Below, one piece after another: positions 1,277-19,234 of a stretch of DNA of 32,953 nt. This stretch comes from a virus. The position numbers and the translations under genes are program-made. The stretch lies in the IMG/VR virus record IMGVR_UViG_3300010392_000700, positions 1-32,953 of that record. One strand, given 5' to 3'. Numbering within the stretch: position 1 is the first letter of the stretch; each line of letters starts with the position of its first letter. The notes below the pieces were generated by a model that searched no databases, was not told where the DNA came from, and saw only the letters and a program-made list of their open reading frames with translations.

Positions 1277-1311
1277 CTAAATAAGCCAATATATATAGGT
1301 GTTTAAAGGAC
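1277..1311 (-). promoter_or_regulatory. Putative phage late promoter, copy A
   Basis: The minus strand reads GTCCTTTA (1311-1304), 19 nt, then TTATTTAG (1284-1277). The 8-mer resembles the Bacteroidota -7 box TAnnTTTG. The ATG of the 71-aa gene lies 28 nt downstream. It is one of five copies with identical spacing in this window. Confidence 0.65.
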
Positions 1312-1335
1312 AAAAATAAGCGGGAAAACCCGCTT
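1311..1335 (-). terminator. Rho-independent terminator after the GH16 gene
   Basis: A perfect 7-bp stem (AAGCGGG/CCCGCTT, 1318-1324 and 1329-1335) with an AAAA loop is followed on the minus strand by TATTTTTG. It lies 17 nt past the GH16 stop. Its U-tract runs straight into promoter copy A. Confidence 0.8.
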
Positions 1336-1352
1336 TAATTAAAAATTAAGAA

Positions 1353-2018
1353 TTACGAATTAAGAATGCCTGTTGCTTCGACTTGTTTTACATTCATGGT
1401 TAATCGTGTTTGATGTGGGAGTGGATCTTCTGCCCAACCGCCAATGGCAAGGTTTATTAATAAGTAATACTTTTGCTTTCGGTAGCGGTTAAAGATTATT
1501 TTTCGTGTACGGCCGTCGACTTTCCACCACATAAATACTTTATTCCATTTTAAGCCGTAAGTGTGATAACCGGTCCAATCACCTTTTATTTTTTTATTTC
1601 TTTTCTTATGCTTTTTACTTCCGTAATCTTCACCCCAATGGTGAGTCGTTTGCAGGGTGTTTGATTCCTGGGATATCCATTCAAAAATATCTATCTCATA
1701 AATTGAACCTTTTGGTGCGTTTACTGGAAGCAACCAGGCGGCAGGAAAAGCACTACGGAAGTTATCGAATCGGCAACGTAATGAGATCTCACCTTTTGCA
1801 CCATTAAAAATAATTCCTTCGGTTCTGGCTTTGTTGATACTTGATAAACATCCGGAGTTAAAAGGTTTTAATCCCTCGGTGTTTATCCTGAGTGCTGTAA
1901 TAGACCATTCCTTGTTCACCGGATTGAATACGCAATTCTCAGGGCGATAAATCTGCAGTTCGTCGCACCAATAGCGATCCCATAGTATTGGAAATAATTT
2001 TTTGGTAATATCTATCAT
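1353..2018 (-). CDS. GH16-family glycoside hydrolase (beta-glucanase-like)
   Basis: This 221-aa protein probably hydrolyses beta-1,3/1,4-linked or marine polysaccharide. The key evidence is YEIDIFEW near residue 107. It matches the GH16 signature E-x-D-x-x-E, with candidate nucleophile E108, D110 and acid/base E113. PAAWLLP (92-98), HHWG, and the late WTGYHTYGLKW and NLAIGGWAED segments also fit the jelly-roll fold. There is no signal peptide. The ATG at 2018 is preceded by GGAGG at good spacing; a TTG 15 nt upstream overlaps that site and is unlikely. It lies 21 nt after the tape measure gene, so it may be a tail-borne depolymerase for capsule or exopolysaccharide. Substrate cannot be read from the sequence. 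Confidence 0.85.
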   Translation of the reverse strand: MIDITKKLFPILWDRYWCDELQIYRPENCVFNPVNKEWSITALRINTEGLKPFNSGCLSSINKARTEGIIFNGAKGEISLRCRFDNFRSAFPAAWLLPVNAPKGSIYEIDIFEWISQESNTLQTTHHWGEDYGSKKHKKRNKKIKGDWTGYHTYGLKWNKVFMWWKVDGRTRKIIFNRYRKQKYYLLINLAIGGWAEDPLPHQTRLTMNVKQVEATGILNS

Positions 2019-2039
2019 AATATAGTCCTCCAATAATAT

Positions 2040-4907
2040 TTAATTTCTCGAAGCTCCATTTTCAATTGAATCGAGTTTTCGGGTTTCGGTTCTTATTTTA
2101 TGAACCTGTTCGTTGTTATAAAATGCTTCGGCTTTTATTCCTTCGGCAAGTTGAGCACTAAGCATGGCATTTACTTCGGTGCTTTTCTGAATTAGAGCTT
2201 CTATTTGGCCCATATCTAAACCTTGTGAACTTCCTGCATTGGAATAATCACCTTCGGCAAACTGTGGTACTCTGTGAGCCATTATGCTATCTATTAGGCT
2301 CGGAGTATTCATCTGAATATTTCGAAAAGTTTTACCATCGATAACCATTTCCGGATCGGCAGTTTCACCAAACAATCCGAAGCCTGGTGTAAAAGTTGGT
2401 TCGCTGTAAACGCCTGTTGTACCTTTACTTACTGTGCTGTTATATACTTTACCATCATCGGCACCACGCACATTATATTTACCTTTAGCATACTGAGCAG
2501 AGTTAATTGTTCCTATTTCAACGGCTCCTGCAGCACCAACCAGTGCAGCCATAATAAATGATAATGGAGGGGGCGAGCCTCCTAATGCTTGAGTAACACC
2601 CATGGCTGTATTAATGATAGCTTGGGTTAATGCAATATTCTTTTGTTTCTTGGCATATTTCTTTTCAATACGATCCTTTTCTTTTGCATTATCTCCGGCA
2701 GCTTTTAATTCACGTTGTTTAGATTGTTCGTATCGGTTGCTTATAGCACCTGTAAGATTCATTATTGCACCGCCCCATTTTGCTGTTTCGGTTGCAATCT
2801 TACTCCACATTTGTTGAGTAGAGTCAACCTGCGCTTGATTATACTTATCAACAATCGCTTTCTTCTGCCTTTGGTATTCTTCTTCACGAATAAGACCGTT
2901 GGCATACTCTTCTTCTAATGCAACAAGTTTTAAATTCTTCTCTTCTTCGTCTGTTTCGGCATCGGCAATATCTTGTTCTAATTGTGCAATTTTGTACCGA
3001 TCTTTTATATCTTTTTTTGCAGCTTCATACTCTTCGTAAGATAATAGACCATCGACATAAGCCTGTCCAACAAACTCAAGTTCCTTGCGCTTTTCTTCTT
3101 CAAGAGTTACTAAACCATACTGTCGGCGAATATTCTGTTTACGCTGCTCAATTTCTTCCATAAGAGCGATTTCTTCGTCGCCCTGGACTTCTAACCAATC
3201 AAGGTTTAGTTCGCCTAAGTTTGCTGTTAATTTTCTAAGTTCAGATTCAGTAATCTTTACTTTTTTATCAAGAACTGCAGCATCAATTTTTTTAACTTTC
3301 TCAAGTGTCTCTTGAAGCTTTTTATACTGAGCTTCTTCGTCCTTAATCGTATTTAAATAAACTTGCCGCTTATCAATCAATTCCTGAATCTGTTCGTTTG
3401 AAAGTTTATTTAAATCAATCTCAATACCTATATTTTGAGCAGTCTTGATTAATTCCGTATTAAATTGTTTGTATGCTTCTTCTTCTGCATTTAATATTTC
3501 TTTTGCTTGTATTCCTGTTGCAATACCTTCTCTCTTAGTTTTATTACCAAGTAGAGCCATCTTTTGAAATAATGATAATTCTTTATTATTTATAACTGTG
3601 GCTAAATCATTTAACTCGGTACCAGTTTGTTTTTTTATACTCGACCATAATTTACTTACTGCAGATCCTTGTCCCAACATTTTAAGATAAGCTTCGTTTA
3701 GTTCCTTACTGGCCACTAAATTATTTTGTTGGGAGATCGTTAAATCATCAGTATTATCGACCATACTTTCAAGACCCTCGTTTACTTCCGAAAGAGTTGA
3801 AATAAATTGTATTCCGGCATCTTCTCCGGGACCTCCAAAAATGTCGGCAAGAGCTTGTCCTACTTCCTGACTTTGAGGTGGCATTTCCGCTAATTTTTTA
3901 GAAACCATACTAATGGCTTCAGACATTTTCATCTCACCACTCTGAAGTTTCTCAGACATTTCCTTGCTGCTTATTCCAATGTTTTCAAGAGCTTCCTTCG
4001 TTGCAGGAGTAAGTTCTCTTAAACGAATGTTTGCTTCTTTAATGGCATCAACTCCTTTATCTGAGAAAATACCATCTTTAGTTTGTTTTGATATTGCAAC
4101 AATAAACTGTTCGGCATTATACCCTGCCTCACGGAAATATGCGGGATACTCGCGAAGATTATCAAGAAATTCTCCATTAACATCGGCACCGGCTTGAAAT
4201 CCTTTTTCAATCAAATCGAACGATTCGGAAAAGGAAATATTCATTTGTTTAGAAAGGTTATTGGTAGCTTCTAAAACTTTATTAAAATCTTTGTCGTAAA
4301 CTTCTGCAATAGACATGGCTCTCGCTGTGGTGGTATTAAGCGAAGCTCCTGTCATGTCAGTAAGTGATTTAACTTCTTTTCTTAAACCTCGAAGTTTAGT
4401 TGTAAAATCAACAACTCGTTTAGCTCCCAATAATATAGTCCCTAATCCAAGAGCAGGCATTAAACTTTTTATTCCGCTCATTGCTTTACCCCAAAGGCTT
4501 GTTTGCTTGGTAGTTCCAAACATTTCACCTTTCACCTTTTTCAATTGACCGGTTACTTTTTGCAGATCATTGGATTTTTGAATGTACTCAGCTGTTCCCT
4601 GATTTAACTTCTTTATATCTTTAATAAGAACTTTCTTTGCTCTGGATAAATCATTAAAGTTTGTACCGTTCAGGTTCTTTAACACTTTGGCTGTATCGAA
4701 CGAAGATTTCTTTAGGTTGTTTATATCCTGATTTACCTTCTTAAGTGCTTCGTCGTTTTTCTTCCAGGCATTCAGATCTCCTGCTTTCTGAGCTTCTTTT
4801 ATGGCATCGCGATATTTCTTCGCACTCTTTGCAAGCTTCTGAATCATTTCATCGGCATTCTTGCCGTTTACATCAACCGTGGTGGTTGCCTTTTCGTTAA
4901 TAGCCAT
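2040..4907 (-). CDS. Phage tail tape measure protein
   Basis: This 955-aa protein sets tail length and helps DNA passage. Residues 1-140 are charged and helical. A hydrophobic stretch lies near 150 (LMPALGLGTILLGAK). Residues 160-420 form a TP901-type tape measure core, with segments such as KQMNISFSESFDLIEKG and IFGGPGEDAG. Long charged coiled-coil segments cover about 480-690. A hydrophobic stretch near 775-800 (LSFIMAALVGAAGAVEIG) could insert in the host membrane. The ATG overlaps the stop of the upstream gene in a TAATG joint, which implies coupled translation. The assignment is firm from length, architecture and position. Siphovirus versus myovirus cannot be decided here, because sheath and baseplate genes lie outside the window or are absent. 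Confidence 0.93.
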   Translation of the reverse strand: MAINEKATTTVDVNGKNADEMIQKLAKSAKKYRDAIKEAQKAGDLNAWKKNDEALKKVNQDINNLKKSSFDTAKVLKNLNGTNFNDLSRAKKVLIKDIKKLNQGTAEYIQKSNDLQKVTGQLKKVKGEMFGTTKQTSLWGKAMSGIKSLMPALGLGTILLGAKRVVDFTTKLRGLRKEVKSLTDMTGASLNTTTARAMSIAEVYDKDFNKVLEATNNLSKQMNISFSESFDLIEKGFQAGADVNGEFLDNLREYPAYFREAGYNAEQFIVAISKQTKDGIFSDKGVDAIKEANIRLRELTPATKEALENIGISSKEMSEKLQSGEMKMSEAISMVSKKLAEMPPQSQEVGQALADIFGGPGEDAGIQFISTLSEVNEGLESMVDNTDDLTISQQNNLVASKELNEAYLKMLGQGSAVSKLWSSIKKQTGTELNDLATVINNKELSLFQKMALLGNKTKREGIATGIQAKEILNAEEEAYKQFNTELIKTAQNIGIEIDLNKLSNEQIQELIDKRQVYLNTIKDEEAQYKKLQETLEKVKKIDAAVLDKKVKITESELRKLTANLGELNLDWLEVQGDEEIALMEEIEQRKQNIRRQYGLVTLEEEKRKELEFVGQAYVDGLLSYEEYEAAKKDIKDRYKIAQLEQDIADAETDEEEKNLKLVALEEEYANGLIREEEYQRQKKAIVDKYNQAQVDSTQQMWSKIATETAKWGGAIMNLTGAISNRYEQSKQRELKAAGDNAKEKDRIEKKYAKKQKNIALTQAIINTAMGVTQALGGSPPPLSFIMAALVGAAGAVEIGTINSAQYAKGKYNVRGADDGKVYNSTVSKGTTGVYSEPTFTPGFGLFGETADPEMVIDGKTFRNIQMNTPSLIDSIMAHRVPQFAEGDYSNAGSSQGLDMGQIEALIQKSTEVNAMLSAQLAEGIKAEAFYNNEQVHKIRTETRKLDSIENGASRN

Positions 4908-5293
4908 TAGTCTAGTGTTTCGATATTTTCAATAATTGCCACTTGTGCTTTTTGTCCATACTTCTCGGTAAGGATCTCTCCCAGGCGTTTTACATGTCGG
5001 TAAAAAACAGGAGTGTACCATAATCGTTTTTTTCGAGTGTTGGATGTAATTCCAACATCGTCCATAGTCACTCCTTTACCAACTGCCATTTCAATGTACT
5101 TACCGTAATAGTTATATATAAATTCTATTCTATTAATATTGCCTCCTGTTTCCATAAACACATGCGCTGCAAAACTTTCCGATAAAGCGAATGTGTCGTT
5201 TATCTTTAAATCATAAACCTTTTTTTCAAAAGCAGTAATCAATATATCTGCCCACGCTTCGGCAGTAAGTTGTAAATCAACATTCTTAGCCAT
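4907..5293 (-). CDS. Tail completion or minor tail protein (hypothetical)
   Basis: This 128-aa protein (MAKNVDLQLTAEAWADILITAF...) has a helical N-terminus and a basic C-terminal part (TRKKRLWYTPVFYRHVKRLGEI). I recognise it only as the kind of protein found just before the tape measure gene in Bacteroidota phages. The start overlaps the end of the preceding gene by 8 nt, and its stop overlaps the tape measure start, so three genes are tightly coupled. A tail-completion or tail-chaperone role is inferred from position alone. Confidence 0.65.
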   Translation of the reverse strand: MAKNVDLQLTAEAWADILITAFEKKVYDLKINDTFALSESFAAHVFMETGGNINRIEFIYNYYGKYIEMAVGKGVTMDDVGITSNTRKKRLWYTPVFYRHVKRLGEILTEKYGQKAQVAIIENIETLD

Positions 5294-5798
5294 TTATCCA
5301 ATCGTTAGCATTGTATCGTATATTTAAAATAGGCTCGTTGCTGAATGTTACCATCAAACCTAAATAGCCTGTGTGTATTAAAGTCATTTCTTCGGCTTGG
5401 AAACTACCTAAATCAAGTTTCTCTAAACCGAAAAGAATATCTTCGTGAATATCATTGTTGTAATCCTTTTTAAACTTCGAGAAGATCTTGCGTTCCGTAT
5501 CGCGCAACTCTCGTTTAATGGTTTCGTTCTCATCGTAATCTTTCCCTTTATACTTAAGTAAGAAATAAGTATAAAACTGTCGTTCGGTTGTGCGCCCTTC
5601 GTTGTAACCTTTTCTAAAGCTGAACACATCTTTTATCAATAAGTGAATGCCAGGTGGCCGAGAAGTTCTTATAAACTCATCTAAACCAAACAAGCTGCTT
5701 ACGCGATGAAACTTTTTATTTGTGTCATCAATATGAGCGATCTCTTTTAACCTGGTCGCTACATCTTTCATGTAATTTATGTGATCGTATTCAGCCAT
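5286..5798 (-). CDS. Hypothetical head-tail or tail assembly protein
   Basis: This 170-aa protein begins MAEYDHINYMKDVATRLKEI. The frame stays open further upstream, but the ATG at 5798 is preferred. It falls one base after the stop of the previous gene (TAA-G-ATG), and a longer form would run 48 nt into that gene. The protein is mixed alpha/beta, charged, and lacks membrane segments or a recognisable motif. Its place between head-tail connectors and tape measure suggests a neck or tail-terminator component. Confidence applies to the gene rather than to that role. Confidence 0.6.
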   Translation of the reverse strand: MAEYDHINYMKDVATRLKEIAHIDDTNKKFHRVSSLFGLDEFIRTSRPPGIHLLIKDVFSFRKGYNEGRTTERQFYTYFLLKYKGKDYDENETIKRELRDTERKIFSKFKKDYNNDIHEDILFGLEKLDLGSFQAEEMTLIHTGYLGLMVTFSNEPILNIRYNANDWING

Positions 5799-5799
5799 C

Positions 5800-7706: not shown

Positions 7707-9131
7707 TTACATATTTTCTTGTCCAACAGATTTAGTTGCACCCGTTCCCTGGTCAAGTGTGGTTAAGGATAAATTCATTATCTCAAAATGAATATCAGGA
7801 TCCCATCCGTTAAAATCACGAATTAAATAAAGAGGTCGGAGCAAGCGATCACGATAAGGTTTCATTAAAGCTTGCTTAATTATGAAAAGCTCGCGAGCTT
7901 CGGTTCCATTAATACTTTTGTTTGAACCGGGAGCCGATCCAATTAAAGAAGGATGCACACCCATTGCAAATGAAATCATATTCGAACCCTGCTCAATGTC
8001 TTTAATATATTCGCCACCGGTGAACTTATTATCGATGGCTTCCACCTGCATCCATACAATTTCTTTACCGTCGGGTGTGGTTTTATATGTTGTTATAATT
8101 GCTTTACCTGCATTCTCAGGTCCCGACAAAAATTTATTGATATTCTCATATTCCTTTAGTTTTCGTTCTGCTTGTTTCTTTTCATCGGTAATTTTCTCAG
8201 TTGCAAATATTGATGGGAAATAATCTGCATGAAGCTTAACCACATACTTAATGGTCATCATGGTTTTTACCAAAGATTTTTTCATTTCCGGAATGGAGCG
8301 AACAAAATCGTACCAATGTTCAAAGATCGAATACCAATAAGGTTTTTGGTAGTAACTTTTTCCCGGAGTTGGAAACTGTACCGGAACAATGTATCGGAAA
8401 ACATTTTTGTCGGTTTCTTTTTTCTTACCATCGTCGAGCCATTCAAGCTTACCCAATCGGCGCATTAAATCGGCATATGGTCGTTTACCATCGAGCACCT
8501 TAGTAACTTCGGGTGGGAGAATATCTTTATCTTCGTCGCCCTCAATAGACGAGTCGTTTTGTCCCCAATGCGACCAGTAAAAATGGTTTTCAATCTTTCC
8601 CGTTTTGGGATTCATAACTTCCCAACGGCTATATGCAGCTTCTTTATGGTTAATCTCCACAATCTTATCACGCTTACCGTTCAGAATTACTTCAGGAAAA
8701 CAATTAAAGAAAGTTCTCATATCGTTTACCTGCTCCAAGAAAAAACCCGAAATATCGTTGTGTTTAAAAAACTCGTTTATTTCATCATTTTTATAATCAG
8801 GAATAAAAGTTCGCTTTCCTGTTTTATCATCAACTTGGTATTTGCCATAAACAATTCCATCACCATAGGTTAAATCAATATTAAACCCTAAAGGGGCAGA
8901 AACATCGGGTACTTTATAAATTTTATCAAGTACTTGCATTGGAAGATCGTTATCTTCGCCCCAATAAGCAACACCACGGTATTTCGTTTTATTAATTTCA
9001 ACCTCTTCCGGATCTTTATCCGAAGATTTTAGAATTTTATCGCTATCGGTTTCGGTAATTACCAATGCTGCGGTGTTTTTCAAATAAGCAATATCGCCTG
9101 CACCTGAAAATATAATTTCGTTTGTTTCCAT
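7707..9131 (-). CDS. Phage portal protein
   Basis: This 474-aa protein forms the dodecameric DNA entry channel at one capsid vertex. Size and position (after terminase, before connectors) fit. The sequence has the look of portals from Bacteroidota phages: an N-terminal wing (YWGEDNDLPMQVLDKIY, about residues 57-73), a central helical region with alternating lysines (325-345), and the C-terminal GVHPSLIGSAPGSNKSINGT (about 405-424), where portals often have GIPP-type turns. The start overlaps the preceding stop in a TAATG joint. The C-terminus is short and acidic. I am confident of the function although no catalytic motif exists to confirm it. Confidence 0.82.
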   Translation of the reverse strand: METNEIIFSGAGDIAYLKNTAALVITETDSDKILKSSDKDPEEVEINKTKYRGVAYWGEDNDLPMQVLDKIYKVPDVSAPLGFNIDLTYGDGIVYGKYQVDDKTGKRTFIPDYKNDEINEFFKHNDISGFFLEQVNDMRTFFNCFPEVILNGKRDKIVEINHKEAAYSRWEVMNPKTGKIENHFYWSHWGQNDSSIEGDEDKDILPPEVTKVLDGKRPYADLMRRLGKLEWLDDGKKKETDKNVFRYIVPVQFPTPGKSYYQKPYWYSIFEHWYDFVRSIPEMKKSLVKTMMTIKYVVKLHADYFPSIFATEKITDEKKQAERKLKEYENINKFLSGPENAGKAIITTYKTTPDGKEIVWMQVEAIDNKFTGGEYIKDIEQGSNMISFAMGVHPSLIGSAPGSNKSINGTEARELFIIKQALMKPYRDRLLRPLYLIRDFNGWDPDIHFEIMNLSLTTLDQGTGATKSVGQENM

Positions 9132-9361
9132 TATATGTACACTTCCATGCTTTTAAATTCAACAATAAGAATATGTCGCACCGTTCGCACTTCTCCCGAA
9201 ACTTTATGCCGAAGGTTTACCGTTTTATTTTTATGGTTAATGCTTGTAGAAACAACATCGTCGGCATGGATCAGCTCACCGCTTTTCGTTCTGTATTTTA
9301 ATGAGAACGGCTGCGGATCTTCCATCTGCTTAAGCATTTGTTTTCGGCTAATTAATCCCAT
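9131..9361 (-). CDS. Small conserved phage protein preceding the portal gene
   Basis: This 76-aa basic protein (MGLISRKQMLKQMEDPQPF...) consists of a short helix followed by beta-strand-like segments (GELIHADDVVSTSINHKNKTVNLRH, residues 29-53). The composition suggests a small SH3- or Tudor-like barrel, but that is a guess. It is the first gene after promoter copy B, only 13 nt past the -7 box, so its mRNA leader must be very short. Its stop overlaps the portal start, so it probably aids portal translation or assembly. No function is assigned. Confidence 0.6.
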   Translation of the reverse strand: MGLISRKQMLKQMEDPQPFSLKYRTKSGELIHADDVVSTSINHKNKTVNLRHKVSGEVRTVRHILIVEFKSMEVYI

Positions 9362-9374: not shown

Positions 9375-9409
9375 CTAATTAACCCTATAAATACAGGTGT
9401 TTAAAGGAC
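9375..9409 (-). promoter_or_regulatory. Putative phage late promoter, copy B
   Basis: The minus strand shows GTCCTTTA (9409-9402), 19 nt, then TTAATTAG (9382-9375). It shares AACACCT after the upstream box with copy A, and CATAAAAAAG after the -7 box with copy C. It would drive the portal-connector-tape measure operon. The expected leader is under 10 nt. Confidence 0.65.
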
Positions 9410-9639: not shown

Positions 9640-11256
9640 TTAGCTTGGATAGTAGGTTGCTGCACCACCTGATACACCGGCATGAACGGGAGTCTCCTCG
9701 GCTCCTCGCTTGAGTGTATCCATAGCATCGGTAAGGTGTGGCTGCTCTTGTTCAGTTTCGAAATGTTTATGCTCACCACTCTTGTCCTTACCCCATCCAC
9801 GCTTACCAGTATATGAAACTCCTGTTTGTTCCATTGCAGTAATAAGGTCGTAACAATTGTATTTATTATAGCGTGGGTATAATCCTGCCTCTCCTTTAAA
9901 GGATAAGGACCACTTATTGAATCGAATATCGTGATACTCCTGTTTACCCAGGTATATATCTTTAACAGTCCACCCGGCTTTAGATAGTACCTGCATGACC
10001 AAATCCTTATTCGTGTTATTGGATAGCTCACTGCGACGAATAGATGTGGCATCATAGTAATAGATAACCTGGTTATTCTTATTCTTATGTGGCTCGTAGT
10101 ACTGTGCCCACTTACGCAACATATCAATAAACTTAAGGGGAGCCTTAACATACATTGATTTAAGGAACCACAGCTCTTTATCTTCATAGTGTGCCTGACC
10201 GGTTACTAATGAGTTAATGTCGGCATTATGGTCCTCGGCTATAATAAGGGGTACACTCTCATCTATATCGGTATCCTGCCGGCAATCGAGGTTGTTGTTT
10301 ATCTCTTCGAAGTTGTATTCAAACTTATCCAGGAACTCATTATTGAATGATATAGGTAGTATATGGTGTTTATCAGAGAATAGATCATAATAGCCGTGTT
10401 CTACCTTGCCAGGCTTAATGTTCAGTATCGATGTACGAAACTCGAAAGGAGGGAGGGTGCGCTTTTGATCTCGAATATACTTCTCTCCAAGCACCCTTAT
10501 ATTGTCCAATGCCGATGCTTCTGAGTAAAACACCGCATCTTTTCGTAAGAAATTAAGCTCCTTAAGTAAATGGGCCTTTGTTTTAGGATTTCGAGCTGCA
10601 ATATACTTCTTATAAGTGTATAGAATAAGCTCAATTAAACCCTGGTCCACATCTTTGCTTTTATCGAGTATCCATTGTTCAGGTTTACGCACTGGCATAT
10701 CGGTGCAAAATAGCTGACTTTTAAAGCGTGGATTATCAGAAAATTGCTTTATAGTGTAATAAGATCCGGATATTGCCGGTAATGTTTCTGATAATAGGCG
10801 TTGATAGTTCAAAAAGCGAGCTTCATCGCCCACAATCCAATCTAAAGAGTATGAATTTGATGTTCCCAGACGATCTTGTGATATAAGCACCTGAATAGAG
10901 CCATTAAACCATGAAATTGTATGTTGATAATCGCGGGGCTTGATATAAGGTTCATCCCAACCCCATTTTTTAAGCGGTTTTTTACCGATTACAAAATGAA
11001 CATCTTCGACATATCCGAGTAATTTCCACGTATTAATGGTGTTTGGCAATATTTGAGCCAATCCCATTTTATAAGTAGGAAAAACAAAGGCTCCCATTGC
11101 TTTGGGCATTGAAAATATATTATCAATGGTTCGAGGACCTGTTAAACCGTGAGATTTACCCGTTCGACGAGCCCAAACATGATATTCACGATTGGCTTTT
11201 ATATATGCGGCCATTCGCTGCGGTTTATTGAAATATATCTTACGCTTATCGCTCAT
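9640..11256 (-). CDS. terL: Terminase large subunit
   Basis: This 538-aa ATPase-nuclease packages phage DNA into the prohead. The Walker A motif is ARRTGKS (about residues 29-35) and Walker B is DWIVGDE with acidic residues near 144-145. The C-terminal RNase H-like nuclease has candidate metal ligands in IIAEDHN (about D342), YYYDATS (about D402) and HLTDAMD (about D511). The ATG at 11256 is chosen; an upstream TTG would add three residues. The start lies inside the end of the small subunit gene, with an 11-nt overlap, as in many terminase pairs. The motifs make this a firm call. Confidence 0.95.
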   Translation of the reverse strand: MSDKRKIYFNKPQRMAAYIKANREYHVWARRTGKSHGLTGPRTIDNIFSMPKAMGAFVFPTYKMGLAQILPNTINTWKLLGYVEDVHFVIGKKPLKKWGWDEPYIKPRDYQHTISWFNGSIQVLISQDRLGTSNSYSLDWIVGDEARFLNYQRLLSETLPAISGSYYTIKQFSDNPRFKSQLFCTDMPVRKPEQWILDKSKDVDQGLIELILYTYKKYIAARNPKTKAHLLKELNFLRKDAVFYSEASALDNIRVLGEKYIRDQKRTLPPFEFRTSILNIKPGKVEHGYYDLFSDKHHILPISFNNEFLDKFEYNFEEINNNLDCRQDTDIDESVPLIIAEDHNADINSLVTGQAHYEDKELWFLKSMYVKAPLKFIDMLRKWAQYYEPHKNKNNQVIYYYDATSIRRSELSNNTNKDLVMQVLSKAGWTVKDIYLGKQEYHDIRFNKWSLSFKGEAGLYPRYNKYNCYDLITAMEQTGVSYTGKRGWGKDKSGEHKHFETEQEQPHLTDAMDTLKRGAEETPVHAGVSGGAATYYPS

Positions 11257-11857
11257 CTTCGACAATTTCGGCTTCTTCGATGTTGTTTTTCATGTACTTT
11301 TTCTTAAGCTGTTGGGCTTTTTCTTCGCCAATATCTTCAATATCGAGTGTGGTTACATCGGCTGTAAATTCCATTTCCGGCTGTTGGTAATTTGAAGGAT
11401 CCACACCCGTATCTTCTTTATCCAAATTATTGACCTCACCAAGCACTTTCGAAGCATATGAAAGGTTTTTGGTGTCGAAATACTCATTTTTTGTTTCAGA
11501 TTCTTCAAGAAACTTGGTTTCGTGTGATAGTGCTTTTTTTTGCGCTTCGGTAACCATAAAACGAACATATTCTTTGTTCGCTTTCATAAAACTGCCCAGG
11601 AAGAAATGCTCAACGGCTCGAATATCGTTGTAGGCAGTCCAATATTCCACTTCGAACAGTTCTTTTAGCTTATCGGCAAGTACTTTATCGGCAATTAATG
11701 GATCTTCAATTTTATTGGAATAAATCACCATGCACCGCTTTTTAATATCGAGCTGTGCAGGTGTAAATCCGTTGGGATTACTATCAGAACGTAAAAGGCT
11801 CTCATCACTATCAAATAAGTGCTTGAGAACCTTTTCATGTGATTTCAGTACTTTCAT
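11246..11857 (-). CDS. terS: Terminase small subunit (putative)
   Basis: This 203-aa protein should recognise the packaging site and load the large subunit. It has a charged N-terminus, a helical middle (IYSNKIEDPLIADKVLADKL, about residues 46-65) and an acidic C-terminal part ending in EEAEIVEDER. A helical oligomerisation segment and acidic tail fit a small terminase, although a classical HTH was not identified. The main evidence is position: it directly precedes and overlaps the large subunit gene. Its own start overlaps the upstream coiled-coil gene by 4 nt (ATGA). Confidence 0.7.
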   Translation of the reverse strand: MKVLKSHEKVLKHLFDSDESLLRSDSNPNGFTPAQLDIKKRCMVIYSNKIEDPLIADKVLADKLKELFEVEYWTAYNDIRAVEHFFLGSFMKANKEYVRFMVTEAQKKALSHETKFLEESETKNEYFDTKNLSYASKVLGEVNNLDKEDTGVDPSNYQQPEMEFTADVTTLDIEDIGEEKAQQLKKKYMKNNIEEAEIVEDER

Positions 11858-12657
11858 TCAGAGTCTTTTATTTCGGCTTGTCGTTTTGCAAGGTCTGTGA
11901 GCTCTTTTTCCCACTCAGGAATATTTTTTTCACGTCGCTTAATTTTGTTTTTAAGGCTTCTGAGATCTTTGGTGGTAATATCCTTATCCTTAAGCTGCTT
12001 ATTAAACTGATCAATCTCCTTCTTTGCTCTCGGAATGTTGATCTTGACTGTTTCAATTCTCCGTTTGTTTTCTTCGAATTCGTGGAAAACGGAACGTCCA
12101 TCGTCTTTTTTTTTATCAGGATCCAAGTTCTTTGCCCATGCATCAATTTTACCCCATTCGATGTAATTCTCATCTTCCAAATTGGTAATTTCCTGAGTTA
12201 AATCGGAGATATCATCGCCATCTTTGGCCTGTTTAATCTTATTATGCAGCTCTTTCATCTTTCCGAATCGCTCTTTTATTGCAAAAAACACGATTTGAAG
12301 ATCTTCCGGAAGATCCTTTGGATTTAACAATTCGAATTGCTCAACAATTTTAATATGCTTTTGATCGCGTTCGGTAACAACAGGATTTTTGGTTTCTTTC
12401 GTGTCTTTTCCTGTAATAACAACAGGTGCGACTTTAATATCTTTGGCTTCAACTGTTACTTCGGCAGCTTTTTGGCCTTGGATTCGTGCAAGTCGGGCTA
12501 ATTGCTTATGAAGCATATCAAAATGAGCTTCACCAGGCTCGGAAGTTTGTACTTGTTCAAAATATTGAACATAATTATCGTTTTTAAACTGTTTGTACAG
12601 CTTAACACCTTCTAAATATTTGTTTTTAGGTGATTTTAACCAATCGAATATATTCAT
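11854..12657 (-). CDS. Coiled-coil protein coupled to terminase
   Basis: This 267-aa, highly charged protein has an N-terminus MNIFDWLKSPKNKYLEGVKL and long K/E-rich helices from about residue 120 to the end, typical of a coiled coil. No known domain was recognised. It is the first gene after promoter copy C and overlaps the small terminase gene by 4 nt, so it is made together with the packaging proteins. It could be a packaging accessory or terminase partner. This is an inference from context. Confidence 0.65.
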   Translation of the reverse strand: MNIFDWLKSPKNKYLEGVKLYKQFKNDNYVQYFEQVQTSEPGEAHFDMLHKQLARLARIQGQKAAEVTVEAKDIKVAPVVITGKDTKETKNPVVTERDQKHIKIVEQFELLNPKDLPEDLQIVFFAIKERFGKMKELHNKIKQAKDGDDISDLTQEITNLEDENYIEWGKIDAWAKNLDPDKKKDDGRSVFHEFEENKRRIETVKINIPRAKKEIDQFNKQLKDKDITTKDLRSLKNKIKRREKNIPEWEKELTDLAKRQAEIKDSE

Positions 12658-12674: not shown

Positions 12675-12709
12675 CTAAGTAAAAGTTTGCAGCTACGTTT
12701 TTAAAGGAC
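12675..12709 (-). promoter_or_regulatory. Putative phage late promoter, copy C
   Basis: GTCCTTTA (12709-12702 on the minus strand), 19 nt, then TTACTTAG (12682-12675). The terminase operon starts 17 nt downstream. The upstream T-run is shared with the preceding terminator. Confidence 0.65.
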
Positions 12710-12710
12710 A

Positions 12711-12736
12711 AAAAAAGCTCCCGAAGTGGGAGCTTT
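12711..12736 (-). terminator. Rho-independent terminator after the secreted 151-aa gene
   Basis: A 9-bp perfect stem (AAAGCTCCC/GGGAGCTTT, 12714-12722 and 12728-12736) with loop GAAGT is followed on the minus strand by a T-run that merges directly into promoter copy C. Confidence 0.85.
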
Positions 12737-12744: not shown

Positions 12745-13200
12745 CTATACCATGAACCTAAAATTAGGTAAAGGGCATAAGCCCATCACCTCCTTACTAT
12801 TTATTATTTGCATCGAAGCGTGTTTATAATTTTTAGTGGTCAGAGTTGTATTACTTTTCAAGTTTTGTCTAAAGTAATTGGTTCCGTACCATCTTAGTTT
12901 TTCCTTATTGTCAGAAATAGCATAAAGGGCATTTAAACCATCATATTGGCTGTTATTATCCTTACTAAACTCGGGATAATAAACGCCCCATTGTATATCG
13001 CCGGGTGATAAATCCGCCTCTATAATTTGTACAATTAATAAATCCTGATCGGCAACATCAAAAACAACATCGATCGTGCTGTTTACATTGTCGCAAACCA
13101 ATTCGCAATCTTCCGAAATCGGAATACTGTAAACCGGATTATCCGGTAAGAACACCAGAGTAATTACGGCTAATGATAAAAGATAAATGATTTTCTTCAT
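12745..13200 (-). CDS. Secreted hypothetical protein, probable cargo (moron) gene
   Basis: This 151-aa protein has a clear Sec signal peptide: MKK, a hydrophobic core (IIYLLSLAVITLVFL), and a likely cleavage near residue 25 (VYS-IP). The mature part has cysteines near 33, 37 and 143 that could pair in the periplasm. No domain was recognised. It is a single-gene unit: promoter copy D lies upstream and a strong terminator follows 9 nt after the stop. Self-contained units like this between virion operons are typical of morons, cargo genes that often alter the host. A role at the host envelope is inferred. Confidence 0.7.
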   Translation of the reverse strand: MKKIIYLLSLAVITLVFLPDNPVYSIPISEDCELVCDNVNSTIDVVFDVADQDLLIVQIIEADLSPGDIQWGVYYPEFSKDNNSQYDGLNALYAISDNKEKLRWYGTNYFRQNLKSNTTLTTKNYKHASMQIINSKEVMGLCPLPNFRFMV

Positions 13201-13249: not shown

Positions 13250-13284
13250 CAAAGCAAAAACATATATTACGTTAACTAAAGGAC
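13250..13284 (-). promoter_or_regulatory. Putative phage late promoter, copy D
   Basis: GTCCTTTA (13284-13277), 19 nt, then TTGCTTTG (13257-13250). The -7 box is close to the Bacteroidota consensus TAnnTTTG. The leader to the secreted gene is about 42 nt. Confidence 0.65.
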
Positions 13285-13967: not shown

Positions 13968-14177
13968 TCATTCTTCTTTATCTAAATCAGAACCATCATA
14001 GGATTTATTTAGGATTCGTAATTCACGGATTATTGTATTCAACATACCAAGATAGAAACCTATAATAATAGAAACGGAGATCATTGGTACATATAATTTA
14101 AGTGGGAGCAGAACAATATAACAGAACACTGTATAAATTACCCAGGCTTGTAAGTTAAATTTTAATCTTTTATCCAT
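13968..14177 (-). CDS. Small two-helix membrane protein, holin candidate
   Basis: This 69-aa protein has two hydrophobic segments, at about residues 10-28 (AWVIYTVFCYIVLLPLKLY) and 31-48 (MISVSIIIGFYLGML), with a basic N-terminus and a charged C-terminal tail (SYDGSDLDKEE). Small size, two membrane spans and a charged tail fit a class II holin. However, no endolysin gene is adjacent, and many small phage membrane proteins look alike. It follows the glycosyltransferase gene by 5 nt and is likely co-transcribed with it, so a membrane helper for that enzyme is an alternative. Confidence 0.6.
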   Translation of the reverse strand: MDKRLKFNLQAWVIYTVFCYIVLLPLKLYVPMISVSIIIGFYLGMLNTIIRELRILNKSYDGSDLDKEE

Positions 14178-14182
14178 AATTC

Positions 14183-15613
14183 CTAATTATTTAACTCATT
14201 CCACTCCACCGAATTAACCACCTCGGTCTGAATTTCATCCTTAGAATGGCAATTATGGTAAATGGTTTGAGTACGATTGTATTTTTGTGATTCTTTAATC
14301 CATCCTTTCGAATGTTTTAGTAAGAGAATAGGCACGTTTTCGTTATTTGCTTTGCGTGAGAACCAAATATCGGCCATATTAATGGTATCGAAATCCATAA
14401 CGCCAATTCGAAAAGTATCGGTGTGGTATGCTGTTACACCTGTTCCGGATACATGCACAAAAACATCCTGGTTAAGATCTCCTAAACAGGTAAATCCGGC
14501 AGTATGTCCATTGTAATAACTATTTACTGGCATATTGTCAAAAATACGACCGTGCAATCCAACAATATACTTCCGATCGTGCTTCTCGATTTGCTCAATT
14601 AGCTTATTCACATAATCGGATGGGTAAATAAGATCATCATCAACCGTAAAATGGTAGCCTTTAATTTTATCTGCAGTGTAAAATTTTCCCACATCACCCA
14701 AATCGCCCACTTCTTTGGCACTTTCGAACACGCTTATCTTATCATTGTTCAGGAATTCGGGTATATGCGTGAAGTTATTCAGGTAAACATGCAGCTCATC
14801 AACCTGCGGAAGTAAGCTTTTTACTGTTTCTTCCAATGATAATTCACGACTTGGCATTGTTGCAAGCGAAGCTGTAACCTTATCTTTTCGATGGTTCGAT
14901 ATTAAAGGGTGTTTTTTACGCTCGTGAGGGTGCATTACACTTTCGTGTAAACCATGAATAAGCAAGGAATGGCTTACCTGATAAATAGAAGCTCCGGCAG
15001 CAAACAACCTCTCAGAGATCTGTTTACCAACGCCGGAGCTTCGTCCCGGTTTGCCTGACCAGTTTTTATCCACCACGTTAATTTTAAAATCTAAAAACTC
15101 AAAATATTTACGGCCGCAGATATATGCCATATCTACCCATCCGCTTAATATAAAGGTGTAAGAATCGAATTGTATCTTTTTAGGATCTACAGGCACCCAA
15201 ACCGCATGCCCATTTCGTCCGTAATCGTTCAGGATATTTAAACATGCTTTTTTTTCGTCCCGGATAGAATCAAACTTTTGTATGGCACGATCGAAGAAAC
15301 GATCCACCAACTGAATATCATCGGGAATTTGAATAAAATAATCAAATGATTCCGACCTTACCAATTGATAAAACTCATGAATAATGTGATAATAATAGGC
15401 TTTGCCTCGGTGGATATTATCTTCGTAATAGTAAAAATCCTTAAAATATCGCTTTAAATATGCAATAACCTTCGCATAGTTAGCACTTGAACAGTCGTTA
15501 TTAATTAGTAGCTTAATTTGGAAGTTTTTGCCCTGTTTTTTGATTTCTTTTAACAGGTTAAGCAACATTTCGGGTCGCTCATAAGTGGTAATGAATACTA
15601 TAATTTTTTTCAT
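14183..15613 (-). CDS. Tandem GT-A glycosyltransferase
   Basis: This 476-aa protein appears to contain two GT-A-like halves. The first begins MKKIIVFITTYERPEML, a GT2-type nucleotide-sugar binding start, with an acidic pair in IQIPDDIQL near residues 98-99. The second begins around 246 (VTASLATMPSREL) and carries a DDD triad at about 325-327 (FTVDDDLIY), the usual metal-binding position. The frame runs on upstream to a TTG, but that stretch is a palindromic repeat, so the ATG at 15613 is chosen. It lies between capsid and terminase genes. Likely roles are glycosylation of virion proteins or modification of host surface sugars. Donor and acceptor are unknown. Confidence 0.82.
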   Translation of the reverse strand: MKKIIVFITTYERPEMLLNLLKEIKKQGKNFQIKLLINNDCSSANYAKVIAYLKRYFKDFYYYEDNIHRGKAYYYHIIHEFYQLVRSESFDYFIQIPDDIQLVDRFFDRAIQKFDSIRDEKKACLNILNDYGRNGHAVWVPVDPKKIQFDSYTFILSGWVDMAYICGRKYFEFLDFKINVVDKNWSGKPGRSSGVGKQISERLFAAGASIYQVSHSLLIHGLHESVMHPHERKKHPLISNHRKDKVTASLATMPSRELSLEETVKSLLPQVDELHVYLNNFTHIPEFLNNDKISVFESAKEVGDLGDVGKFYTADKIKGYHFTVDDDLIYPSDYVNKLIEQIEKHDRKYIVGLHGRIFDNMPVNSYYNGHTAGFTCLGDLNQDVFVHVSGTGVTAYHTDTFRIGVMDFDTINMADIWFSRKANNENVPILLLKHSKGWIKESQKYNRTQTIYHNCHSKDEIQTEVVNSVEWNELNN

Positions 15614-15649
15614 ACGATCAGGCAAATTAAAAAGCTCTTCAAAAGCTTC

Positions 15650-15719
15650 TGTCATCTCCAACTTGATTGGAGATCTTGATTTAATTAATTTTGAGATTCC
15701 CTTTTTCAAGGGAATGACA
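15650..15719. repeat. Inverted pair of REP-like palindromes
   Basis: Two hairpins face each other: ATCTCCAA/TTGGAGAT (15654-15661 and 15667-15674), preceded by TGTC, and ATTCCCTT/AAGGGAAT (15696-15703 and 15708-15715), followed by GACA. The outer TGTCAT...ATGACA ends are inverted. This layout matches dispersed REP/BIME-type repeats (TGTCATTCC...GGGAAT) common in bacterial chromosomes. It fills the gap upstream of the glycosyltransferase start. Confidence 0.65.
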
Positions 15720-15760
15720 AGAAAAAAGCTTCGATCTAAGCCGTGACTTAGATCGAAGCT
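15720..15760 (-). terminator. Strong rho-independent terminator after the capsid operon
   Basis: A 14-bp perfect stem (AGCTTCGATCTAAG and its complement, 15727-15740 and 15747-15760) with loop CCGTGA is followed on the minus strand by TTTTTTC. It ends the operon a few bases after the 79-aa gene, so the glycosyltransferase needs its own promoter or readthrough. Confidence 0.9.
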
Positions 15761-15766
15761 GAATGG

Positions 15767-16006
15767 TTATTTTTTATCATCACCTTTAGGCTCTTTCAAA
15801 CCAGGCTTTTCGATTTGTGGTTTTTCAACCTGAATAGTTTTCTCCGGCTTCGATCGAATGGTCTTACCTTCTTCTAAAATAATATAAGGACAACCTTCTT
15901 TTGCCAGTTCCTGAGCGAGTTTTTCTGATATATTATCTAACTGAATTACTCCACGACCTTTAAAGTCGGCTCGTTTAGGTGCATTTGGTGCTAATTTAAA
16001 AGGCAT
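15767..16006 (-). CDS. Small basic protein of the capsid operon
   Basis: This 79-aa protein (MPFKLAPNAPKRADFKG...) has a folded N-terminal half containing ISEKLAQELAKEGCPYIILEEG (about residues 26-47). The tail is rich in K, P, E and Q with PEKTIQVEKPQIEKP-type repeats, probably disordered. The middle segment resembles small proteins encoded next to capsid genes in Bacteroidota phages. It follows the membrane-segment virion protein by 7 nt and ends just before a strong terminator. A head completion or decoration role is possible but not shown. Confidence 0.6.
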   Translation of the reverse strand: MPFKLAPNAPKRADFKGRGVIQLDNISEKLAQELAKEGCPYIILEEGKTIRSKPEKTIQVEKPQIEKPGLKEPKGDDKK

Positions 16007-16013
16007 GCTTCAA

Positions 16014-16700
16014 TTAGCTTAAAGGTGCAACTTGTCCAGCACTTAAAGGAATAGCACCATCGTAACGTAATCCTGCAGCTGAGCTTTCGGCTTCGAACGA
16101 AAGGGTTAAACCTTTCTTCTCGGATCCCGAATACTTAGGATTCAAATAACAAGGGAATCCATCGGTACCGATTAACTCACGCTCACCATTCTCTTCCACT
16201 ATAATTAAATATCCACGTGCATTGTTAAACTTACGCGCCATAGCTTTAACCTGATCCGAAGATCCTGGTAAGAAAATCTCACCTTTATTACTATGAGCCT
16301 TACTATCTCGTTCGCCAATAGGCTCAGGTGAGAAAGTAACCGAAGTACAATACATTTGAATAAAGAATTTAGCATCTTCCATAACAAAAGTGCCTGTGGC
16401 ATGACTTGCTTCTTCGGCAGTTGTAGGAGCAAGGTTCATTTGTGGAGCTGTAGCAACATGACTCGCAGGCGCCCAATACACTTTCTTTTTATAGTCGGCC
16501 ATATTATCGGGCTCATCGGCATACAGAATATCACCATAAGTAAATCCCACTGCCAAAACACCTACAGGTGTGGTGGCAACCATTCCCATTACAAAAAAGC
16601 TAGCTACAATCCCAAACTGCGTTAATGTGTTTACTTCAAATTCGAAGCCAACGGCTGTTCCTAAGAAGATGGACAATATTAAAATTCGAATTATTTTCAT
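16014..16700 (-). CDS. Virion structural protein with N-terminal membrane segments
   Basis: This 228-aa protein starts at the ATG at 16700; a TTG three codons upstream is less likely. Residues 1-57 hold two hydrophobic segments (KIIRILILSIFLGTAVGF and FGIVASFFVMGMVATTPVG). From about residue 68 (MADYKKKVYWAPASHVATAP) the sequence resembles a soluble head or tail-tube protein of Bacteroidota phages. It continues with FFIQMYCTSVTFSPEP and NNARGYLIIVEENGERELIG, and ends in an S/A-rich tail. The gene follows the major capsid gene after a hairpin. The membrane part is unexpected for a virion protein. It may be removed by proteolysis, or initiation at the internal ATG may bypass it. Confidence 0.65.
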   Translation of the reverse strand: MKIIRILILSIFLGTAVGFEFEVNTLTQFGIVASFFVMGMVATTPVGVLAVGFTYGDILYADEPDNMADYKKKVYWAPASHVATAPQMNLAPTTAEEASHATGTFVMEDAKFFIQMYCTSVTFSPEPIGERDSKAHSNKGEIFLPGSSDQVKAMARKFNNARGYLIIVEENGERELIGTDGFPCYLNPKYSGSEKKGLTLSFEAESSAAGLRYDGAIPLSAGQVAPLS

Positions 16701-16721
16701 GATTTTCAATTTAAAGATGAA

Positions 16722-16741
16722 GCGGGGTATCGCTACCCCGC
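16722..16741 (-). other. Intercistronic hairpin after the major capsid gene
   Basis: A perfect 8-bp stem (GCGGGGTA/TACCCCGC) with loop TCGC lies just past the capsid stop. The minus strand after it reads TTCATCTTTAAA, without a proper U-tract. It is more likely an attenuator or mRNA-stabilising hairpin that favours capsid expression than a full terminator. Confidence 0.6.
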
Positions 16742-16746
16742 AAAAA

Positions 16747-17775
16747 CTAACTTATATAATCACCGGAAAGGGCGTTTACAGAACCTTCAGACTGATTGTT
16801 GATAAACAATTCTTTCTTATTAAAAGAACGAATACGAGTACCATACTGAGACTGAATCCAAAACTGAACTACATTTGGATCTTCTTCACGATCGCGAACT
16901 TGTACAAAGTTTGCATCGTTCATCTTATCCATTCCGAATTGTAAGTTTCCAGGTGTTGTCAATATCATTCTCTGACCATCACCAATCTCAGAAGAACGAA
17001 CAATTGTACATTTCTTTTGTGATCCGTGTAAAACAGTTCTACCATATTCGTCATACTCAGGCTTAAACCTTGTCATATTACGATAAGCATCATCATAAAT
17101 ATCTGCAAGTTCATGCGACATTAATAATATACTTGGACGATCTTTTAAGAATCGATTAGATTTTCGGTAAAAACCAAGAATCTGATCCGCAGCATCGTGA
17201 TCGGCTTCATCTGTTGGTGCAGTAATAGCACCAATTGAAGTATCGTAGTTACCTTGAGCAACTGCAATTTTTTCAGCTGTAATAAGATTATCAAGTACTG
17301 TATGATAACCATTAAAGATTCCTAATGGAGATCTGTCGGCTTCGTCACGAGTTGCATGGAAAAGAGAGTTAAACAGAATGTCTTCACCAAATGTTTTAAT
17401 AATTGATGTTAACATTATCATTTGCCAAGGATGTTTTTTGCCTTTATTTTTACCTAAAAGCACATCCGGACCAACTGCAACTTTCTTATAATTTTGGATG
17501 TTATCCTTAACATTTGCATATGCTAAGAAAACTTCAAGAACAGACTCAACCGCTTTTCCAACTTCAGCATTTTCAACCGTACCTGCAACGTAAGGTTTTG
17601 CGATTCCTGCTTTTCGTTCAAAATTGGTTAAAACATCTTTATTCTGAATATCTTCGATAACAGAAATTCCCATAGCTCCTAATCTTGGAGCCATAACAGC
17701 AAAAGCTAGAGTCTTAAGATCCTTAGCATATTTAATTGCTGTTTCTTGTAATAAACTAATATCAACTGTTGACAT
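16747..17775 (-). CDS. Major capsid protein
   Basis: This 342-aa protein would build the icosahedral shell. Features consistent with an HK97-type fold are a helical N-terminus (IKYAKDLKTLAFAVMAPRLG), a long middle domain, and a beta-rich C-terminal part (FVQVRDREEDPNVVQFWIQSQ, about residues 289-309, then GTRIRSFNKKELF). The length is typical. It lies 18 nt downstream of the prohead protease-scaffold gene, the standard pairing. No catalytic motif exists to test; the call rests on size, composition and gene order. Confidence 0.85.
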   Translation of the reverse strand: MSTVDISLLQETAIKYAKDLKTLAFAVMAPRLGAMGISVIEDIQNKDVLTNFERKAGIAKPYVAGTVENAEVGKAVESVLEVFLAYANVKDNIQNYKKVAVGPDVLLGKNKGKKHPWQMIMLTSIIKTFGEDILFNSLFHATRDEADRSPLGIFNGYHTVLDNLITAEKIAVAQGNYDTSIGAITAPTDEADHDAADQILGFYRKSNRFLKDRPSILLMSHELADIYDDAYRNMTRFKPEYDEYGRTVLHGSQKKCTIVRSSEIGDGQRMILTTPGNLQFGMDKMNDANFVQVRDREEDPNVVQFWIQSQYGTRIRSFNKKELFINNQSEGSVNALSGDYIS

Positions 17776-17793
17776 TTTTTTAGAGTTTTATAT

Positions 17794-19164
17794 TTATAAA
17801 TATGCTTCAGTTACACTTTGAATATTTGCATTCAAATCGTCTCCCTTAGTTACTGGACCTTCTTCACCTTCCGATGCATCAGGATCGCTTTTCACAACTA
17901 CTTTAGCACCAGGAGCTCCTGCACCTTCGCCTAAAGCTGTAATCTGATCATCCTTTTCCTGCAATGCAGTGGCATGTTCAGATTTTAGAGTATTGGTTGC
18001 TTCTTCGTTCGAAGCTTTCAAAGCTGTAATTTCTTCGCTATGCGCGGTAACAGCTTCTTCTAACTCGGTTGTTTTAGCAGCCAAGTCGTTCTGAGCCGTT
18101 TGTAAGGTCGCTGCAGTTGTTTCGTTCGCTGCCAATGTAGCATCGATCTTCTCAAGCTGCTCCTTACTTAAGCTTGCCATATTATCTCCATCGAGTTCGA
18201 TTGAAGCAATCGCAAGCAAAGCGGCAACGTGTTTGAATTTTTCCATGTTTTTCGCTGAATTTTTATTTGGTTTACTAACTATTGTGCGTTTTTTTGCCAT
18301 GTCGGCAACTTGTTCGAGGGCCTGATCAAAAGTTCCTATCTCATCAATCATAATTCCTTTTAAATCTTTAGCCATATAAACTTCACCTGTCATCATATCG
18401 TCGGTAACATTCGGTAAGTTCTTTTTAATGGTGTTCTGAAATTCGATGGCAATAGGATCTAATACCTTTTTCTTATATTCTTCGTATTTTCCTTTGCGTA
18501 AATCGTCGAACATTTTTGTTTTATCGGGCGATAGGTTACTAACTACCTGGTGGAATTTTATTCCTTGAGCTTCGTAATGTGGTATAAAATCAAAAAACGA
18601 CATTAATACACCGATGCTTCCAATCTGATCTAAGCCGGTTGAAGCCATTCGATATTTGGCATTAGAACCTAGCCAAACACCTGCCGATGCTTCTAGTCCA
18701 TCAATAAAATCAAGAGTTGGTTTTTCGGCATTTAATATTTCATTACCAAACACCTCGGTGCCATCGACAGATCCTCCGGGAGTATCGGAGTGGAATAAAT
18801 GCCCCACTATATTATCGTTTTGCTCAGCTGCCTTTAATATTCGTCGTAAACTTGCTGTACCCATAGGACCACACATTTGGTCATTTTTCATTAATGTGCC
18901 CATAATAGGAATTACAGCCACCGAACCTTCGGGTGCATCTTTAAATCCATCATACCAATTATATCTAACTGGATTTGCAGATTTAGGATTTATAGCAAAT
19001 GGAATGTTCGATTTAGGATCGTTAATATCTTGCGAAAAGGTATTTTCGAACTTAGTATCAATTCCATTAAGCATCTGAAAAATAAAAGGAGCGTAAGCCT
19101 CGGCAACATCTTTATGTATTGCCCAGGCTCCACGAACTATTGAAGATATTAATGCATAATTCAT
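17794..19164 (-). CDS. Prohead protease (S49/SppA type) fused to scaffold-like domain
   Basis: This 456-aa protein matures the capsid. Residues about 78-290 are S49-like: VAVIPIMGTLMK (83-93), the oxyanion segment DTPGGS (127-132), candidate nucleophile S160 in GLEASAGVWL, and QIGSIGVLMSFFDF (180-193). From about 305 it becomes a scaffold-like region rich in A, E, T and Q (340-410, coiled coil). An acidic tail follows. An internal ATG at 18246 (MEKFKHVAALLAIAS) could yield the scaffold alone, as in the lambda C/Nu3 pair. The major capsid gene follows at once. The N-terminal location and intact protease motifs make the call firm. Confidence 0.9.
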   Translation of the reverse strand: MNYALISSIVRGAWAIHKDVAEAYAPFIFQMLNGIDTKFENTFSQDINDPKSNIPFAINPKSANPVRYNWYDGFKDAPEGSVAVIPIMGTLMKNDQMCGPMGTASLRRILKAAEQNDNIVGHLFHSDTPGGSVDGTEVFGNEILNAEKPTLDFIDGLEASAGVWLGSNAKYRMASTGLDQIGSIGVLMSFFDFIPHYEAQGIKFHQVVSNLSPDKTKMFDDLRKGKYEEYKKKVLDPIAIEFQNTIKKNLPNVTDDMMTGEVYMAKDLKGIMIDEIGTFDQALEQVADMAKKRTIVSKPNKNSAKNMEKFKHVAALLAIASIELDGDNMASLSKEQLEKIDATLAANETTAATLQTAQNDLAAKTTELEEAVTAHSEEITALKASNEEATNTLKSEHATALQEKDDQITALGEGAGAPGAKVVVKSDPDASEGEEGPVTKGDDLNANIQSVTEAYL

Positions 19165-19199
19165 TTTATTATTGTATTAGATTTAATCTAAAATCAATA

Positions 19200-19234
19200 C
19201 AATAATATGGATGTAATACAGTGTAATAAAGGAC
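19200..19234 (-). promoter_or_regulatory. Putative phage late promoter, copy E
   Basis: GTCCTTTA (19234-19227 on the minus strand), 19 nt, then TATTATTG (19207-19200), which matches TAnnTTTG in seven of eight positions by pattern. It would drive the protease-capsid operon with a leader of about 28 nt. Its upstream flank (AAGA) differs from the T-runs of copies A, C and D. Confidence 0.6.

Follow-up and report, generated by a model that had tools for sequence, protein, structure and literature searches.

In phages P2, Mu and lambda, a dedicated phage protein made before the late phase (viz. Ogr, C, and cII acting at PRE, respectively) activates several operons. The middle promoters of phage T4 carry the MotA box, wwwTGCTTtA, which is short and asymmetric (PMC2988021). 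In the Bacteroidota, promoters of the primary sigma factor, sigma-A, consist of a -33 TTTG and a -7 TAnnTTTG, and the -7 box is found at -12 to -5 in the mapped promoters of F. psychrophilum (PMC9723704). LuxR-type regulators have been reported in Helgolandviridae and Duneviridae as quorum-sensing-type genes without a promoter motif, and the paper on the phages Leef_1 and Ingeline mentions LuxR genes only (PMC8776804). Our search of the open-access literature, which left subscription papers and preprints outside its scope, found no description of a late promoter element or late activator of Bacteroidota phages. In the present work, we have analysed the complete IMG/VR record IMGVR_UViG_3300010392_000700 (32,953 bases; hereafter the window), which encodes a Bacteroidota siphophage, and we describe a short element, WGTCCTTT-N20-TAnnTTTG, that precedes its virion operons, together with a small basic protein, here called REG, that is its candidate activator. 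The presence of the same signal at a fixed distance in dozens of distantly related Bacteroidota viruses points to a shared, undescribed on-switch for the particle genes, which is probably worked by a small, as yet unnamed viral protein. We consider it likely that the five elements of the window are the late promoters of one regulon and that REG is their most likely activator.

A fixed-spacing element ahead of the virion operons

A first-pass annotation of the window had described a family of five minus-strand elements, in each of which GTCCTTTA is followed at a distance of exactly 19 nucleotides (nt) by an 8-nt box. All five copies of GTCCTTTA are present (1304-1311, 9402-9409, 12702-12709, 13277-13284, and 19227-19234), there are no others in the window, and the spacing is 19 nt in every one of them. 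This count compares with 1.2 copies expected, and five or more were reached in 0 of 100 shuffles. The combined pattern GTCCTTTA-N19-TWNNTWNG, which had also been put forward, is exact in four copies and requires one mismatch in the fifth; the exact pattern did not occur in 200 first-order simulations of the window. The -7 boxes of the window (Table 1) are degenerate (viz. TTAnTTAG, TTGCTTTG, and TATTATTG). Their distances to the next start codon (28, 13, 17, 49, and 35 nt from the end of the box) agree with the 13-49 nt originally given, and all five copies stand ahead of virion operons, the early block of the window being free of GTCCTTTA as had been claimed.

The fifth copy belongs to an A-subtype, in which AGTCCTTT is combined with a TA(A/G/T)(C/T)ATTG-like box. 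Elements of this subtype recur ahead of the head protease in other phages (G412, G418, G419, G427, G430-G433, G436, and Porphyromonas phage030a), and the aberrant fifth copy of the window is a regular subtype. G003, G415, G421, and other relatives likewise have an element at the place of copy 2, ahead of their portal operon. A close relative (L006, an IMG/VR contig whose terminase is 79% identical) contains two copies, GTCCTTTA-N19-TTATTTAG and GTCCTTTA-N19-TTACTTAG, in which the spacers between the boxes have diverged from those of the window while the boxes and their distance are kept; judged from the sequences, such retention amid changing DNA is what would be expected of a promoter.

The comparative set consisted of 145 loci with relatives of the portal protein, drawn from viral and bacterial contigs (Bacteroidota phages and prophages), and these were retrieved with portal alignments because single-sequence TerL and portal queries recovered close relatives only. 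In a ranking of strand-biased intergenic 8-mers from these loci, made without the motif being given, TGTCCTTT came first (228 vs. 8) and the next ranks were its shifted neighbours. Alignment of 199 non-redundant intergenic copies of TGTCCTTT revealed, without its being asked for, a second box starting 20 nt downstream (T67 A80 n n T87 T99 T60 G72), which is the Bacteroidota sigma-A -7 consensus TAnnTTTG, with little conservation between the two. The alignment also corrects the motif as first annotated: the final A of GTCCTTTA is not part of the core, the ninth base being A, T, or C and rarely G (8%), and the element is WGTCCTTT-N20-TAnnTTTG. On the portal strand, TGTCCTTT-Nk-TAnnTTTG gave 39 exact pairs at N20, 1 at N19, and 0 at all other values of k from 10 to 33, and the sites with a loose box number 136, compared with a mean of 0.6 for permuted control words.

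The five-copy family is thus real, but its extent had been understated, as the motif is common to phages whose terminases are only 26-35% identical. Named phages with copies at late operons include Polaribacter phage Leef_1, Cellulophaga phage Ingeline_1, and Bacteroides phage BT-TP2, and further carriers are Porphyromonas phage030a, the gut phage MT835542, and Mea-Yong924-1. The last of these (L010; MZ447863.1), deposited as a 'Microcystis phage', has 4 late-promoter copies, REG, and portal and terminase homologues, and its cyanobacterial host label may be wrong. Variant elements that keep the N20 distance to the -7 box are TGTCACAA in laban6-1 and TGTCTTAA in 6H, and a subclade of REG carries the variant NGTCTTTT, also 20 nt from TAnnTTTG. 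No intergenic element with the late-promoter geometry was found in Crass001 (first 50 kb), B40-8, or Hankyphage, and none of these encodes a REG match. G410 (L086/L200/L201) and G429 (L197) share REG and the virion genes with the other phages, but no motif variant that was tested could be found in them; in G410, TTAACTGATT is seen repeatedly close to the starts of genes and may be a late element of another kind. Another strand-biased word, TGTAGGAA in loci L281-L297, was rejected as a late element, as 35 of its 35 sites lie upstream of REG and none has a box at N20. This TGTAGGAA/TCCTACAA array just upstream of REG (35 sites upstream, 0 downstream) is reminiscent of replication-origin repeats.

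Host promoters and the -33 region

The window carries no host flanks, and the comparison with the host was therefore made on other genomes. An equal frequency of the element upstream of host genes, a possibility raised in the first-pass annotation, was not found: in 395 Bacteroidota genomes there are 28 matches, compared with about 69 for a reversed control, and of the 28 three occur together in the G003 prophage and many others inside coding sequence. The late element is not a host regulon.

Given the location of mapped -7 boxes, TGTCCTTT would cover about -40 to -33, the position of the host -33 TTTG. Across the 199 sites this TTTG is absent, with G at 8% at the ninth base and no TTG conserved in the spacer. 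A canonical -33 TTTG formed from the upstream T-run (TTTTTG-TCC) was rejected, as its spacing to the -7 box would be 26 nt and as the T-run is only partly conserved (45-60% T). The combination of a non-host -33 region with a host-type -7 box, suggested earlier from the window, is strongly supported by the alignment and by the fixed spacing, as is the conclusion that these are phage-specific late promoters with a phage element in place of the -33 box. Such partial conservation of the T-run fits abutting terminators. Next to three of the five copies in the window there is an intrinsic terminator, copy 1 coming after the hairpin AAGCGGG-TTTT-CCCGCTT and a T-run, copy 4 after AGCTC..GAGCT and a T-run, and copy 3 directly adjoining the terminator listed in Table 1; a hairpin and T-run lie directly upstream of 51 of the 199 comparative sites, compared with 28 of 1000 random positions. 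Late operons are thus often separated by a terminator-promoter junction, which explains the T-run ahead of the element.

These observations bear on three other explanations. That the copies are ordinary host-type promoters with a phage base preference, for which no phage factor is needed, is hardly credible: the sites lack the host -33 consensus, the 395 host genomes show no enrichment of the WGTCCTTT combination, and the same phage has a host-type TTG-N20-TATCTTTG promoter ahead of its repressor gene, even if the -7 box is of host type and the A+T-rich leader and the short distance to the start codon are normal. The element might alternatively be an operator at which a repressor or immunity system silences the virion genes in the lysogen, as these phages are temperate (with integrase and repressor genes) and the element overlaps the -33 region. 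We regard this as very improbable, since the element is short and asymmetric, no host-type -33 TTTG underlies it, and the spacing between it and the -7 box is invariant where a repressor site would tolerate movement. Somewhat less remote, but still improbable, is a phage-encoded or phage-altered sigma factor for which TGTCCTTT would be the -35 and the TAnnTTTG-like box the -10 element. The exact 20-nt spacing is as expected of two elements under one protein complex, and the LuxR-like protein has a weak sigma-family match (phrog_3282; PF04545, E 0.2); this match, however, comes through its generic helix-turn-helix (HTH), apart from which no sigma-factor family was found in the window, and in sequence the downstream box agrees with the -7 consensus of sigma-A. 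The intact sigma-A -7 box and the rigid spacing favour an activator working with sigma-A, and the missing -33 box, the late-only placement, and the asymmetry of the element also fit an activator, a repressor operator or a separate sigma factor fitting less well.

REG as the candidate activator

Candidates for such an activator were sought among the proteins of 29 records, which were clustered by BLAST and then with hidden Markov models (HMMs). Besides the virion proteins, one uncharacterised family, REG, was found in 26 of the 29 records; the three without it, G414, G437, and G438, are fragments or partly retrieved records, and the records with REG include some that have no LuxR gene. In almost every record REG lies between the early genes and the protease block, and in Mea-Yong924-1 it directly follows the primase. 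The isoelectric point (pI) of REG is 8.6-9.7 in all 26 members, and a pI above 8 is found in 47% of similar-sized open reading frame (ORF) products of the same records. Members were also detected by HMM in all 8 phages of an annotated collection that were examined, including gp8 of BT-TP2, which its depositors named a transcriptional regulator. Around REG, 87 late elements are present downstream (905 kb) and 0 upstream (706 kb) in 98 loci that were retrieved with REG as the query and that overlap in part with the records described above; the binomial probability of this split is about 3e-22 when the sites are treated as independent, though the loci are related. On the REG tree, the motif variants require 11 changes by parsimony (shuffled mean 14.6, minimum 12 in 500), a clustering that is suggestive only.

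AlphaFold2 models of REG are of high confidence (predicted local distance difference test, pLDDT, 86 and 90; predicted template modelling score, pTM, 0.77 and 0.82). In them the N-terminal part is small and of alpha/beta type, there is one long helix, and the C-terminal part is helical and rich in arginine. No relative of REG was found in Pfam, NCBIfam, or the PDB, its models matched no PDB fold at E<=0.001, and it does not resemble any sigma factor; searches of PDB and viral folds returned only a weak ribbon-helix-helix-like similarity and the Leef_1 homologue, and 2 of 25 members touch unnamed PHROGs.

The late promoters and their mechanism could also be as described here with another activator, viz. 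a LuxR/GerE-type protein, the DnaA-C-like protein, or some other small protein, which we consider rather unlikely. In many of these phages the early block begins with a LuxR-type gene, and the usual activators are HTH proteins. The LuxR-like gene, however, fails the phylogenetic profile as binder, as no GerE match was found in the whole records G411, G412, G413, G425, and G430, all of which bear the element, and GerE is present without TGTCCTTT in laban6-1 and G410. The DnaA-C-like gene fails as well: at E<=1, PF08299 was matched in just 7 of 28 records, and only 4 of these matches pass the cut-off.

Several points weigh against REG as the binder. REG has neither a recognised DNA-binding domain nor a structural match, so that DNA binding rests on its charge, position, and co-occurrence with the element; the structural genes are equally universal in the lineage, and REG is therefore not singled out by universality alone. 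In addition, no motif variant that was tested is present in 36 of the 142 REG loci, and Ingeline_1 has one site about 10 kb before REG on its linear record.

With REG as activator, we infer activation of the late operons through sigma-A along the following lines. Host RNA polymerase with the primary Bacteroidota sigma factor would read the -7 box TAnnTTTG as usual, and WGTCCTTT, whose first base is 28 nt upstream of the -7 box, would replace the -33 box contacted by sigma region 4, with the consequence that the late promoters should be weak or silent alone. A phage protein made at the end of the early phase, most likely the unnamed small basic family REG at the early/late junction, may then bind WGTCCTTT beside sigma, replacing the region 4 contact and switching on the operons for packaging, head, and tail much as MotA does at the middle promoters of T4. 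We lean slightly towards the broader view of a lineage-wide late switch in Bacteroidota siphophages, in which sigma-A is appropriated by activators of an unnamed family, whose fold has no counterpart in the PDB and which recognise WGTCCTTT where the -33 box would stand. In this view, motif and protein have diversified in concert (TGTCCTTT, NGTCTTTT, TGTCACAA, and TGTCTTAA) under an unchanged promoter geometry, and the switch, independent of MotA/AsiA, would be the first late-transcription system to be described for phages of this phylum.

Gene order and comparison with known systems

The genes of the window run from the repressor (plus strand) through the LuxR-like and other early genes, the primase, the DnaA-C-like protein, and REG (191 amino acids, aa) to the head protease, capsid, packaging, portal, and tail genes (Table 1).

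Table 1. Features of the window and their positions
Feature	Position	Strand	Remarks
Late promoter copy 1, TGTCCTTT-N20-TTATTTAG	1277-1311	-	Precedes ORF 1033-1248 and a large ORF that extends past the end of the window
Late promoter copy 2, TGTCCTTT-N20-TTAATTAG	9375-9409	-	Precedes the portal operon and, with it, ORF 9131-9361
Late promoter copy 3, TGTCCTTT-N20-TTACTTAG	12675-12709	-	Ahead of the packaging block
Late promoter copy 4, TGTCCTTT-N20-TTGCTTTG	13250-13284	-	Ahead of ORF 12745-13200
Late promoter copy 5, A-subtype, AGTCCTTT-N20-TATTATTG	19200-19234	-	Ahead of the head maturation protease and major capsid protein
Predicted intrinsic terminator GCTCCCACTTCGGGAGCTTTTTTT	12710-12733	-	Directly abuts copy 3; identified from sequence
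REG, basic protein of 191 aa, candidate late activator	19752-20327	-	Early/late junction
Head maturation protease	17794-19164	-	First gene behind copy 5; phrog_53, E 2.3e-41
Packaging block	ORFs 11854-12657, 11246-11857; terminase 9640-11265	-	Behind copy 3
Portal protein	7707-9131	-	Homologue of the Leef_1 portal; belongs to the operon that copy 2 precedes; used as anchor for the comparative set
DnaA C-terminal-domain-like early protein	22412-22849	-	PF08299, E 5.5e-22
LuxR/GerE-type early regulator	31176-31802	-	PF00196, E 1.7e-12
Host-type promoter TTG-N20-TATCTTTG	32146-32176	+	Precedes the repressor gene 32282-32647; contrast to the late promoters

Several other features of the window were noted. 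Three ATTACAAA repeats with an 11-bp period (32150-32190), between the repressor gene and the early operon, overlap the host-type promoter of the repressor and are operator-like. Between the primase and the DnaA-C-like gene (22870-23080) are many GTAGTTG/ACTACAA repeats, which are possible replication-origin iterons. A repetitive extragenic palindromic (REP)-like repeat, GTCATCCTGAGTTTATCGAAGGATG, is located at 21080-21115; the peptide HAEPVEACN of ORF 28438-28749 resembles a translated REP, and repeat fragments GAGCCTGTCGAAG, similar to the REP-like repeat of the window, are found ahead of late elements in G413/G414. Two glycosyltransferase-like ORFs (14183-15709 and 20324-21046) lie within or adjoining the virion block. 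A single plus-strand gene (21453-22049), on the strand opposite to the early and late blocks between which it lies, has weak Rz-like spanin similarity (phrog_739, E 1.3e-5).

The Bacteroidota dominate the gut and many marine communities, and a rigid motif that marks late operons and orients phage genomes is a useful annotation tool for their phages. The motif also puts forward a candidate for a universal regulator gene at the early/late junction, a region that is unannotated, and a direct test would need no more than a single promoter, a single protein, and a laboratory host. Should REG prove to be the activator, it would be a protein of new fold that acts on a primary sigma factor of unusual type, and it might serve as an inducible expression part in Bacteroides and Flavobacterium genetics.

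Among the known systems, P2 Ogr, Mu C, and lambda cII differ in that no homologue of them was found in the window and that REG matches no named Pfam, PHROG, or NCBIfam family. The LuxR regulators of Helgolandviridae and Duneviridae belong to the same phage families, and the window has a LuxR-type gene too, but such genes are absent from several of the motif-bearing phages. With the primary sigma-A promoters of Bacteroidota the phage sites share the -7 box (PMC9723704), and they differ in having WGTCCTTT for the -33 box, with G depleted where TTTG would end. The T4 MotA/AsiA middle promoters resemble the present ones in that a phage box takes the place of the host -35, the host -10 is kept, and the spacing is near-fixed (PMC2988021). 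REG, in contrast to MotA, has no sequence or fold similarity to any PDB entry, and no MotA-related activator was found; the two systems also differ in host phylum, sigma factor, box, and spacing, and it is the virion genes that the Bacteroidota element serves.

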